A stretch of DNA of 41,854 bases from Pseudomonadota bacterium. Lineage in GTDB: Bacteria; Desulfobacterota; Binatia; Binatales; Binataceae. The notes below the pieces were generated by a model. The model had not been told where the DNA came from. It saw only the letters and a program-made list of their open reading frames with translations, and did no database searches. Positions 35,195 to 41,854 of this stretch are shown here, piece by piece. Numbering within the stretch: position 1 is the stretch's first letter; each line of letters begins with the position of its first letter. The DNA is taken from NCBI GenBank assembly GCA_021325355.1, contig JAJPHI010000013.1, positions 1 to 41,854 on the forward strand, written 5' to 3'. Position numbers and translations under genes: made by a program.

Positions 35195-36352
35195 ATGAAG
35201 CGGAGCAGCGAGCGTATCCTGACGACCCATACCGGCAGTCTGCCGCGCCCGTCCGATCTGCTGGCGCTGCTGCGGCAGAAGGAGGACGGGCAGGCGGTGG
35301 ATGGGGGCGCGTTTGCGGCGTGCGTCCGGCAGGCGGTGGCGGAAACGGTCAAGCGGCAGATGGCGACCGGAATCGATATCGTCAACGACGGCGAGATGAG
35401 CAAGCCCTCGTACGCGACCTACGTGAAGGATCGCCTGAGCGGCTTCGATGGCAGCGAGCGGAGCCTGCCGATTCGCGGCGCCGATATGCAGGATTTTCCC
35501 GACTATGCGCGGGCCAGCGCGGGCGGGATGGGGGCGAGTGGGGTGCGGATGAAGCGACCGGCCTGCACCGGACCCATCAGCTATCGCGAGCGCGCAGCGC
35601 TCGAGGTTGACTTGACGAACTTCAAGGCGGCGCTCGCCGGCACCAGTCCCGCGGACACCTTCATGAGCGCGGCGTCACCGGGCGTCGTCACCTTCTTCCT
35701 GAGCAACAAGTATTATCCGTCGCACGAGGCCTATCTGCGCGCGATCGCCGAGGCGATGCGGGTCGAGTACGAAGCGATCGTCGCCGCCGGCTTCGTGCTG
35801 CAGGTCGATTGTCCGGACCTCGCGATGAGCCGGCACGTGCATTACAAGGATTTGTCGCTGAGCGAGTTTCGCAAAACGATTGAGCTGCATATCGAAGCGC
35901 TGAATCACGCGCTGGCCAACGTGCCCGAGGATCGCGTGCGGGTGCATCTGTGCTGGGGCAACTACGAGGGACCGCACAATCACGACGTGCCGCTGCGCGA
36001 CATCATCGATATCGTCATGAAAGCGCGCGCCCAGGGAATCTCCTACGAGGCCTCGAACCCGCGCCATGAGCATGAATGGGCGGTCTTCAAGGAGGTGAAG
36101 CTGCCGCCGGGCAAGGTGCTGATACCGGGGGTGATCGATTCGGTGACGAATTTCGTCGAGCATCCCGAGCTCGTCGCGCAGCGCATCTGTAATCTCGCCA
36201 ATGTCGTCGGCCGCGAGAATGTGATCGCGGGTACGGATTGCGGTTTCGGCACGATCGCGGGATCGTCGGCCGTCGATCCGGCGATTGCGTGGGCGAAGCT
36301 CAGCTCGATGGCGGAGGGCGCGCGTCTCGCCTCGCGGATGCTGTGGCATTGA
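35195..36352 (+). CDS. MetE-like (cobalamin-independent methionine synthase II) protein, copy 1
   Basis: A 385-residue single-barrel relative of the MetE C-terminal domain and of epoxyalkane:coenzyme M transferase, zinc enzymes that activate thiols. Seen: TTHTGSLPRP near the N-terminus, GIDIVNDGEMSKPSYATY, LQVDCPDLAM, HLCWGNYEGPH (zinc His and Cys) and AGTDCGFG (second zinc Cys). Lacking the N-terminal half of MetE, it is unlikely to make methionine by the usual route; the thiol and alkyl donor are unknown. Adjacent to a closely similar paralog and preceded by the LLM oxidoreductase. Confidence 0.9.
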   Translation: MKRSSERILTTHTGSLPRPSDLLALLRQKEDGQAVDGGAFAACVRQAVAETVKRQMATGIDIVNDGEMSKPSYATYVKDRLSGFDGSERSLPIRGADMQDFPDYARASAGGMGASGVRMKRPACTGPISYRERAALEVDLTNFKAALAGTSPADTFMSAASPGVVTFFLSNKYYPSHEAYLRAIAEAMRVEYEAIVAAGFVLQVDCPDLAMSRHVHYKDLSLSEFRKTIELHIEALNHALANVPEDRVRVHLCWGNYEGPHNHDVPLRDIIDIVMKARAQGISYEASNPRHEHEWAVFKEVKLPPGKVLIPGVIDSVTNFVEHPELVAQRICNLANVVGRENVIAGTDCGFGTIAGSSAVDPAIAWAKLSSMAEGARLASRMLWH

Positions 36353-36467: not shown

Positions 36468-37613
36468 ATGAAACGCAGCACTGAACGAATCCTCACCACG
36501 CACACCGGCAGCCTGCCGCGACCAGAGACGCTGATGCCGCTGGTCGAGCAAAAGGAACTCGGCGAACTCAAGGACCCGGCGCGCTTCGAGGCGGCGGTGC
36601 AGGAGGCCGTCAAAACGATCGTGCGGCAACAGATCGAGAACGGCGTCGATATCGTCAACGACGGCGAAGTGGACAAGCCGTCGTACGCGACCTATCCGAA
36701 AGATCGGCTGAGCGGCTTCGGCGGCGAAAGCCAGGGGTTTTTCGCCCTGGGCGATCTGGCCGACTATCCGGAGTTTGCCGAGAGGTTGTTCGGCCAGAAC
36801 CAACTGCGGGCGCTCAAGCGGCCGACCTGCAACGGTCCGCTGGCGTACAAGGATCGCGCGAGTCTGGACCGGGAACTGGCGACGCTGAAGGCGGCGCTCG
36901 CCGGCTCGGCGGCGGTCGAGGGTTTCATGAGCGCGGCCTCGCCCGGCGTGATTTCGATATTTTTACCGAATCAGTATTACAAGTCGCACGAGGCGTATCT
37001 GGCGGCGCTGGCGGACGCGATGAAGGTCGAGTACGAGGCGATCCATCGGGCCGGCCTGATCCTGCAGGTCGATTGTCCGGATCTCGCGATGGGCCGTCAT
37101 ATCCAGTTTCCCGACGCCTCGCTGGCGGAGTTTCGGCGGAATATCGAGCTGCACGTCGAGGCGTTGAACCATGCGCTGGCCGGTATCCCGCCCGAGGCCG
37201 TGCGGATCCATCTGTGCTGGGGCAACTACGAAGGCCCGCATCATCGCGACGTGGCGCTGCGCGACATTATCGATATCGTGCTCAAGGTCAGGGCCGACGG
37301 CATTTCATACGAGGCGTCGAATCCGCGTCATGAGCATGAATGGGCGGTGTTCAAGGAGGTGAAACTGCCGCCGGGCAAGGTGCTGATACCGGGCGTGATC
37401 GACTCGGTAACGAACTTCATCGAGCATCCGGAGCTGGTGGCGCAGCGCATCTGCAACGTCGCGAAGCTGGTCGGGCGGGAGAACGTGATTGCCGGGACCG
37501 ACTGCGGTTTCGCGACGTTAGCCGGTTTCCATACGGTGGATCCGAAGATTACCTGGGCGAAATTCCGGGCGATGGCCGAGGGCGCGCGCCTCGCCTCCCA
37601 GGAGCTCTGGTAA
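36468..37613 (+). CDS. MetE-like (cobalamin-independent methionine synthase II) protein, copy 2
   Basis: A 381-residue paralog of the preceding gene, with the same TTHTGSLPRP start, HLCWGNYEGPH and AGTDCGF zinc motifs. The C-terminal third (ISYEASNPRHEHEWAVFKEV, GVIDSVTNF) is almost identical between copies while the middle (about residues 80-120) differs, so the pair arose by tandem duplication and then diverged in the substrate region. GGAG 8 bp before ATG 36468 marks the start. The 115-bp gap between copies has no terminator. Convergent with the second amidohydrolase. Confidence 0.9.
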   Translation: MKRSTERILTTHTGSLPRPETLMPLVEQKELGELKDPARFEAAVQEAVKTIVRQQIENGVDIVNDGEVDKPSYATYPKDRLSGFGGESQGFFALGDLADYPEFAERLFGQNQLRALKRPTCNGPLAYKDRASLDRELATLKAALAGSAAVEGFMSAASPGVISIFLPNQYYKSHEAYLAALADAMKVEYEAIHRAGLILQVDCPDLAMGRHIQFPDASLAEFRRNIELHVEALNHALAGIPPEAVRIHLCWGNYEGPHHRDVALRDIIDIVLKVRADGISYEASNPRHEHEWAVFKEVKLPPGKVLIPGVIDSVTNFIEHPELVAQRICNVAKLVGRENVIAGTDCGFATLAGFHTVDPKITWAKFRAMAEGARLASQELW

Positions 37614-40420: not shown

Positions 40421-40512
40421 GGAGAGGTGGCCGAGCCCGGTTTAAGGCGCACGCCTGGAGAGCGTGTAGACTCGGAAGGGTCTCGGGGGTTCAAATCCCC
40501 CCCTCTCCGCCA
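40421..40512 (+). tRNA. tRNA-Ser(GGA)
   Basis: GGAGAGG pairs with CCTCTCC as acceptor stem, discriminator G then encoded CCA (40510-40512). The anticodon loop CTGGAGA gives GGA, reading UCC/UCU. The long variable arm (TAGACTCGGAAGGGTCT) is typical of class II serine tRNA, and GGTTCAAATCC is the T-loop region. Confidence 0.97.
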
Positions 40513-40981: not shown

Positions 40982-41030
40982 GCGTTTATCGGCCCAGCCT
41001 GCACCTGTTCTGAGGCTGGGCGATAAACGC
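40982..41030. repeat. Long hairpin (18-bp stem)
   Basis: GCGTTTATCG-G-CCCAGCCT (40982-41000) pairs with AGGCTGGGCGATAAACGC (41013-41030): 18 bp with one bulged G and a 12-nt loop. It sits between LprI and the tRNA-Ala fragment; no gene lies in 40936-41221. It may be a terminator or a palindromic repeat unit. Confidence 0.8.
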
Positions 41031-41221
41031 AATAAAGTTTCCGGCAGATACTAACTTATCGCTGGGATACTTCCACGGGGTAGGGCGAACCGATCGCTAC
41101 GTTCAGACCGGATGTAAAAGTCAGGTCGAATCCGTTCAGAAAACCTTCCTCGATCTGAACCCTGTGGATTTGCACGACAGCCTCGCGAAAGTCCGCGGAC
41201 CGAAGAAGTGCTTGATTTTAT

Positions 41222-41268
41222 TGGTGGAGCTGAGCGGGGTCGAACCGCCGACCTCCTGAATGCCATTC
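41222..41268 (-). other. tRNA-Ala(GGC) 3' fragment: left attachment site
   Basis: The minus strand reads GAATGGCATTC (anticodon arm, GGC), then the variable region, T arm GGCGG-TTCGACC-CCGCT, acceptor 3' strand CAGCTCC, A, and CCA ending at 41222. The 5' half of the tRNA (acceptor 5' strand and D arm) is missing. A 47-bp 3' tRNA duplicate is the usual trace of tyrosine-recombinase integration. Its orientation places the inserted DNA to the right, where trbF begins 177 bp later; the intact tRNA-Ala gene should lie at the far end. Confidence 0.82.
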
Positions 41269-41300
41269 GGTTCTCATCGGTCAAAGCCTCCAACAAAAAC

Positions 41301-41353
41301 CAAAAAACCCAATAAAAATCGAGAGATCGCGCCCTTCGTTTTGGGGTTTTTTG
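41301..41353. repeat. AT-rich inverted repeat inside the element edge
   Basis: CAAAAAACCC (41301-41310) and GGGTTTTTTG (41344-41353) form 10 perfect pairs; outer GCCTC (41286-41290) and GAGGC (41353-41357) add near pairs. Base composition here is far more AT-rich than the chromosome to the left. It could be a terminator facing either way or a recombination accessory site. Confidence 0.6.
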
Positions 41354-41373
41354 AGGCCTGTCTTAACGAGTTC

Positions 41374-41444
41374 GCGGACAAATGGCGGACAACTTTACGC
41401 ACACACGAATGGACCGCTGAGCGGCTCGTTCGGGGAGTGTCCGC
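41374..41444. repeat. GCGGACA repeats (two direct, one inverted)
   Basis: GCGGACA occurs at 41374-41380 and 41385-41391 with 11-bp periodicity, and inverted as TGTCCGC at 41438-41444, just before trbF. Short repeats spaced by one helical turn next to an att site resemble integrase arm-type or excisionase sites (inference). Confidence 0.45.
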
Positions 41445-41854
41445 ATGGCCGCGAATCCGTACTTCGAAGCGCGACGGGAATGGGATGAACGCTACGCCGA
41501 TCTGGTACTGGGCAAGCGCAACTGGCAGATAGCGGCGGGCGGGCTGCTCGCGGTTTCGCTGATACTTGCGATCGGGATCGTCTGGCTCGCGACGCGAAGC
41601 CGCTACATCCCGTACGTGGTCGAGGTCGACAAGCTCGGCTACGCGCTCACCGTTCCGCAGCCGCTCACGCCAACGTCAGTCCCCCACGTGACCGGACGCA
41701 TCGAGCGCTACGAGGTCGCCGCCTTTATCCGCAACGCGCGCGCGGTCAGCAGCGACGTGCAGGTCGAGCAGGAGATGCTCAACTCGCTGCTCGCGCATGC
41801 GCGCGGCGCGGCGGACAAGTTCCTCGACGAGTACTACCACTCGGACGGCTTCGC
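41445..41854 (+). CDS. trbF: Conjugal transfer protein TrbF (N-terminal part)
   Basis: VirB8-like inner-membrane component of a P-type mating-pair formation (type IV secretion) system. MAANPYFEARREWDERYADL and GKRNWQIAAGG are the characteristic TrbF opening, followed by a membrane segment (about residues 30-48) and IPYVVEVDKLG, then the start of the periplasmic NTF2-like domain. GGGGAG 7 bp upstream supports ATG 41445. The gene runs off the window. In plasmids trbF is followed by trbG and trbI; these should lie to the right. It marks the inside of an integrated conjugative element. Confidence 0.93.
   Translation, partial: MAANPYFEARREWDERYADLVLGKRNWQIAAGGLLAVSLILAIGIVWLATRSRYIPYVVEVDKLGYALTVPQPLTPTSVPHVTGRIERYEVAAFIRNARAVSSDVQVEQEMLNSLLAHARGAADKFLDEYYHSDGF

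Follow-up and report, generated by a model that had tools for sequence, protein, structure and literature searches.

The right end of a 41,854-bp contig carries a displaced tRNA-Ala(GGC) 3' half and trbF, the probable edge of an integrative conjugative element

The window analysed here is an entire contig of 41,854 bp (G000:C26) from genome G000, which is 95%-complete and was assembled as 3.36 Mb in 35 contigs. The right end of the window is almost certainly the edge of an integrative conjugative element (ICE), whole or decayed, of a lineage represented by a complete homologue in genome G021, and we consider it probable that this edge belongs to a continuing element, of which it forms the attR end. 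The element is of a known kind, a tRNA-targeting ICE whose transfer system is IncP-like, and its host is little studied. The family of this host carries conjugative elements that apparently cross genus borders and have clear, testable attachment sites. A small literature search, which cannot show novelty, found no evidently related paper on ICEs in Binatota or on tRNA-Ala ICEs in metagenome-assembled genomes.

Results

The junction between the tRNA fragment and trbF

The features at the right end of the window are as follows.

40421 to 40512, plus strand: intact tRNA-Ser(GGA), the only complete tRNA in the window (ARAGORN)
41206 to 41221, minus strand: chromosome-side flank beyond the CCA, ATAAAATCAAGCACTT, resembling tRNA-Ala(GGC) 3' flanks of the family
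41222 to 41268, minus strand: displaced tRNA-Ala(GGC) 3' half, attR core, tRNA positions 31-77 including the CCA
41269 to 41444, unstranded: element end from the core to trbF, whose start resembles the ends in G010, G018 (Centralia_MAG_231) and G002:C7
41331 to 41347, plus strand: weak terminator-like hairpin ending in a T tail, located before trbF and not above chance expectation
41375 to 41391, plus strand: two CGGACA direct repeats with starts 11 bp apart (41375 and 41386), probable arm-type integrase sites
41438 to 41443, minus strand: inverted CGGACA copy
41445 to 41854, plus strand: trbF (VirB8-like), ATG at 41445, truncated by the contig end (Pfam VirB8, E = 6.1e-21)

The first-pass annotation had described a 47-bp 3' half of tRNA-Ala(GGC) on the minus strand without its 5' half, followed 177 bp later by trbF on the plus strand, and both observations were borne out. 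The fragment is 97.9% identical over 47 bp to positions 31-77 of tRNA-Ala(GGC) among 59 ARAGORN tRNA calls (overlapping loci included). Direct reading of the sequence, ARAGORN and Rfam all agree that the tRNA 5' half is absent beside it, and neither ARAGORN nor Rfam at the gathering threshold calls a complete tRNA at the fragment. Even when up to 3 mismatches are allowed, the window holds no second occurrence of the 47-mer, for which 100 dinucleotide-preserving shuffles gave 0 matches; the distance from 41268 to the trbF start at 41445 is 177 bp. The side of the junction that holds tRNA-Ser(GGA) is presumably chromosome. The 16-nt flank beyond the CCA is matched, with at most 3/16 mismatches, by the 3' flanks of 18 of the 31 intact tRNA-Ala(GGC) genes of the family; by eye, the likeness of the window flank to some integrase-side flanks reaches as far as about 31 nt, which may reflect an older insertion at the same site.

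The trbF reading frame is open for 136 codons from its ATG to the contig end, its product is 84.6% identical to the G021 protein over these 136 amino acids, and trbF heads the transfer operon in relatives. The hairpin upstream of it is the one found against a shuffle mean of 0.6. A conserved hairpin between the core and trbF was also tried as a candidate and dropped, because RNAalifold gave 0 pairs on 8 sequences. We also considered the speculative idea that the transfer operon might be switched on via the circle junction; a true terminator at 41331-41347, if real, would speak against it.

As a separate observation, 13 of 24 distinct trbF upstream regions (L017, L018, L044, L002, L019-L021 and L023-L028; 150 bp scanned) contain a sigma-54-like -24/-12 pair at a distance of 76-102 bp from trbF, with 9-10 of 11 positions matching the consensus and 0-3 of 200 shuffles as good; the same 150-bp scan found none upstream of the window trbF. 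Several of those 13 regions contain, by eye, GAGCAC/GTGCTC inverted repeats.

A complete homologous element in G021

Contig C15 of G021 has a tRNA-Ala fragment with trbF after it, at 175539, and farther along, at 225253-225328, a tRNA-Ala(GGC) gene that is intact. The two ends of this element carry a 54-bp perfect direct repeat, most of which is the block homologous to the window fragment; the repeats start at 175311 and 225247, and the element is thus about 49.9 kb long. The order, with gene starts from a home-made caller, is the tRNA-Ala 3' half, trbF-trbG-trbI-traF-relaxase-traG-trbB-C-D-E-J-L, cargo, a tyrosine integrase and the intact tRNA-Ala(GGC) gene. The integrase (219592-220659; Pfam PF00589, Phage_integrase, E = 2.6e-21) is located about 4.6 kb from the tRNA. 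The G021 element therefore has what defines a tRNA-targeting ICE, namely a direct repeat of the tRNA 3' part of which one end restores the tRNA, and a tyrosine integrase near the intact tRNA.

The transfer genes were identified with Pfam and NCBIfam models as TrbF, TrbG, TrbI, TraF, TraG, TrbB, TrbC, VirB3/TrbD, TrbE, TrbJ and TrbL. TIGR02782 (TrbB), TIGR02775 (TrbG), TIGR02771 (TraF) and TIGR02783 (TrbL) scored above the NCBIfam cut-off, the TrbF, TrbI, TrbE, TrbJ and TraG models matched below it, and TrbC and VirB3/TrbD were identified by Pfam; by these curated models the Trb proteins are of the IncP-like (MPF_T) type. The relaxase domain was seen on the G010 protein (PF03432, 2.8e-6), to which the G021 relaxase homologue is 79% identical. 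The G010 relaxase also matches the NCBIfam model RlxS (E = 6.5e-56) over model positions 71-316 of 654, at 190 bits, far below the cut-off of 850. Relaxase, coupling protein and type IV secretion genes, the set expected of an ICE, are thus together in G021, and the window holds trbF only. The cargo of the G021 element includes ArdC and an AbiEi/AbiEii pair; the best PADLOC matches of other cargo genes are DruE-, DrmMI- and PDC-S06-like, labels that stand for predicted functions. In G018, as in G000, two half-ends lie at contig ends, with the fragment on C9 and the tRNA followed by CGGACA sites on C38.

Phased CGGACA repeats at both ends

The CGGACA repeats of the window have counterparts at both ends of the G021 element, at 175471, 175482 and 175493 on the trbF side, and at 225188 and 225199 with an inverted copy at 225212-225217 on the integrase side. 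Two CGGACA copies were present in 8/8 aligned trbF-side ends, which had been chosen for likeness from 24 trbF copies, the other copies carrying other repeats. We then scanned the first 75 nt downstream of intact tRNA-Ala(GGC) genes for a looser pattern, [CT]GGACA or TGTCC[GA], using one locus per genome from 31 genomes of the family and omitting two with less than 60 nt. At least two sites were found at 13 of the remaining 29 loci and at least one at 17/29; the corresponding numbers for 424 control windows taken from these loci were 0 and 16. Since 12 of the 29 loci have no site, not every tRNA-Ala(GGC) gene is occupied by a CGGACA-type element. The motif was picked after viewing 11 of the 29 loci; among the loci fetched later (L089-L108, one omitted), 6/19 have at least two sites. 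These phased repeats at both element ends are probably arm-type integrase sites.

The other side of the insertion in G000

A second copy of the 47-bp sequence had been predicted, and it was found in part: the terminal 29 bp of contig C2 (3,589 bp) are identical to the window fragment (29/29), and in G021 the counterpart is the 54-bp repeat. C2 carries NAD kinase and recN-like (Pfam SMC_N) genes, after which a tRNA-Ala(GGC) gene begins and is broken off 29 bp into the shared 3' half. When the C2 tRNA 5' half and the window fragment were joined in silico, ARAGORN called a tRNA-Ala(GGC). Because C2 has just 29 bp of the fragment, a 44-base part of it remains a single occurrence in the whole G000 genome at up to 3 mismatches. 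At L064, L066, L068 and L069, in genomes G011, G027, G013 (with one gene between) and G001, recN and tRNA-Ala(GGC) are likewise no more than about 2 kb apart. C2 and the window contig both break at or near the presumed element, and we infer that they flank the same insertion.

The first-pass annotation had the element extending to the right with a Trb transfer system, relaxase and coupling protein, and its integrase beside an intact tRNA-Ala(GGC) with the same ending. All of this holds for the G021 homologue; in G000 itself the tRNA part was recovered on C2, and the body and the integrase were not. The contig ends at 41854, and a DNA search of the G000 bin with the G021 trb region as query did not find the body beyond it; among the best 40 of 89 candidates, the matches lie on C7, in a 110-bp piece on C32, in short pieces on C28 and over 40 bp on C19. 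The sole integrase match in G000 is 29% identical and is not counted as the integrase of the window copy. Since the body was not found in the assembly, the statement that the element extends to the right rests on homology.

Two other contigs were weighed and rejected. C28 (19,151 bp) is not the missing body: its TrbF is 36% identical, its order is C-D-E-J-L-F-G-I, its relaxase is TrwC-type and its coupling protein TrwB-type, and its integrase start had no match to G021, G030 or G001 at E 1e-3. C7 is not counted as a second copy of the junction because its tRNA-Thr 3' half faces trbF, the reverse of the window.

These contigs carry features of their own. C28 (L057, G000:C28:1-19151) represents a second, divergent element in G000, with the helicase part of the TrwC-type relaxase in a separate frame and the start of an integrase; an element at tRNA-Ala(GGC) in G001 has the same relaxase and coupling types. 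On C7 (L007:13680-15640) a lone trbF accompanies a tRNA-Thr(CGT) 3' half that matches intact copies at 46/46 bp, which looks like a decayed or tandem insertion. The start of C32 (L058:1-150) has a 39-codon trbI piece 4 bp from a 26-bp tRNA-Leu 3' piece.

Relatives lacking the insertion were compared as well, and this comparison failed to yield an empty site among the loci covered, where the left-flank genes of the window are not beside tRNA-Ala(GGC). Among the matches listed (best 7 candidates per genome), these genes match elsewhere in relatives. In G001, a genome of the window's genus, tRNA-Ala(GGC) is followed by another ICE-like set consisting of an integrase, a TrwC relaxase and TrwB.

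Distribution, transfer between genera and tRNA targets

A DNA search of 57 genomes with the trbF part gave matches in at least 21 of the 35 genomes of the window's family and in 0 of 22 outside it; these counts are lower bounds, taken from the best 10 candidates per genome, and one match of less than 40 bp in G051 was omitted. At the protein level (E <= 1e-25), a sample of 148 genomes from the phylum contained TrbF in 6, two of them in the window's family; the four outside are 31-36% identical.

The 410-bp window trbF is similar in DNA sequence to copies in G002, a genome of a different genus, with identities of 95.4% to G002:C19, 93.4% to G002:C7 and 93.3% to G002:C13, against 76-79% to three copies in G001, the one other genome of the window's own genus. 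For the recN part, in contrast, identity is 67% with G002 and 72% with G001. The 95.4% identity of trbF across genera against 67% for recN points to recent horizontal transfer, and a recent transfer of the trbF element between genera is likely on this sequence comparison. Mis-binning is possible for G002:C19 (4,608 bp) and less so for G002:C13 (195,599 bp). The cross-genus identity would also lend indirect support to the predicted excision and conjugative transfer.

tRNA typing covered 14 of the 24 regions upstream of trbF, each set against 10 kinds of tRNA. The 3' halves upstream of trbF belong to Ala(GGC) (window, G010, G021), Lys(TTT) (G017), Lys(CTT) (G011) and Leu(CAA) (G031), and the matched halves begin at tRNA positions 30-33. 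The half upstream of trbF on G002:C13 (L035), Leu(TAA) by eye, is 77% identical to Leu(CAA). The halves on the G001 contigs C8 and C25 (L044 and L045) are Arg(CCT)-like by eye; Arg(CCT) is absent from the reference tRNAs, and these two matched none of the 10 reference kinds, nor did L012, L034, L033, L018 and L017. By eye, the repeats beside trbF vary with the target, CGGACA occurring with Ala and Lys and GCCAAAGT-like repeats with Leu.

From these data we tentatively envisage a family-wide ICE lineage with a fixed F-G-I-first border, exchangeable integration modules, spread between genera and frequent occupation of tRNA-Ala(GGC). The tRNA genes at its ends would be Ala(GGC), Lys(TTT), Lys(CTT) and Leu(CAA), probably joined by Thr, Arg and further Leu genes, and every target would have a repeat motif of its own, phased at 11 bp; taken jointly, these propositions might or might not hold.

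Discussion

Remnant, mixture or continuing element

The strongest rival to a continuing element is that an ICE of this lineage decayed here, and that what is left of it is the attR core, the element end and trbF, in whole or in part. Remnants of the lineage do exist, so the window copy may be one: on G000:C7 trbF is followed by unrelated genes, on G002:C7 it is in two pieces with other genes after it, on G013:C5 thioredoxin-like and other genes follow it, and several genomes have short trbF pieces. The failure to find the remaining element in a bin that is 95% complete fits this as well. However, the window trbF is not visibly decayed: it is open over its 136 codons, and it shares 84.6% of its amino acids with a full copy and, as DNA, is 95.4% identical to one in G002; furthermore, the window contig breaks off within trbF, and C2 within the tRNA part common to both, where an assembly would be expected to break at repeats. 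We regard decay as unlikely on balance, though a serious competitor.

It is very improbable that the junction stems from an assembly error or strain mixture, being real for an element of the community and not for the genome of the rest of the contig. The assembly has 35 contigs, near-identical trbF copies exist in another genus, and the junction is about 630 bp from the contig end; yet the junction is built as in G010 and G021, and the flank beyond the CCA resembles those of other tRNA-Ala(GGC) genes in the family. The idea of a tRNA pseudogene, arisen by chance or duplication, without any tie to mobile DNA and near trbF by accident, has nothing beyond bare possibility in its favour and is hardly credible given the 0 matches in 100 shuffles, the recurrence of the core-end-trbF layout in other genomes and at other tRNA genes, and the complete G021 element.

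Proposed integration and transfer

For a continuing element, a tyrosine integrase would recombine the element attP with a tRNA-Ala(GGC) gene, the copy next to recN on C2 being the likeliest target, and the strands would be exchanged in or close to the anticodon loop. With the insertion would come a new 3' half, so that the tRNA at the integrase end (attL) stays complete, and the original 3' half would be displaced to the far end, where it forms the window fragment (attR). The transfer operon would open with trbF 177 bp inside the attR end and, judging from relatives, continue with trbG, trbI, traF, an RlxS-like relaxase, traG and trbB-C-D-E-J-L, yielding an IncP-like mating apparatus. The window suggests that a fragmented assembly may lose the body of an element and yet keep its ends, and that edge reads of this type could be a means of finding such elements.

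Relation to known elements

ICEMlSym(R7A)-type ICEs integrate at a tRNA site, as the G021 lineage does. These rhizobial symbiosis ICEs, which are named in PMC2789088, also share with it an RlxS-like relaxase, trb genes and a tyrosine integrase; host group and cargo differ. Tn4371-family ICEs are described with traF, a relaxase likened to RlxS, traG, IncP/Ti-like trbBCDEJLFGI and an integrase (PMC2789088), a set that the G021 lineage shares. The Tn4371 family also has repA-parA-parB stabilisation genes. Two differences place it apart from that family as described there. First, Tn4371 uses an 8-bp attB, a TTTTTCAT-like site that is not a tRNA gene (PMC2789088), whereas G021 uses a 54-bp tRNA-Ala(GGC) repeat. 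Second, the Tn4371-type order is traG and then trbBCDEJLFGI (PMC2789088), whereas here F-G-I comes first, followed by traF-relaxase-traG-B-C-D-E-J-L. G021 and G010 show the F-G-I-first order in full, and in G018, G011 and G016 it can be followed as far as trbE, where the contig or stretch ends; it is a rotation of the known order, and thus a modest difference.

Trb proteins are also shared with plasmids of Comamonas (NZ_CP139995.1), Acidovorax (CP053916.1) and Thauera (NZ_CP023440.1), whose TrbE is 42.1%, 41.5% and 42.0% identical to that of G021, respectively. In all three, the trb operon opens with trbB or a TrbB-like ATPase annotated TadA, and only the Thauera plasmid was typed as conjugative, MPF_T.

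Other features of the window

Further to the left, the genes at 35195-36352 and 36468-37613 are adjacent paralogues with 71% identical DNA, probably a tandem duplication. An inverted repeat is visible by eye at 40982-41030 and 41038-41086 (GCGTTTATCGGCCCAGCC / GGCTGGGCGATAAACGC), and beside it is a 49-bp stretch; in G001, 45-49 bp of this stretch reappear with 87-88% identity no more than 2 kb from three contig starts.
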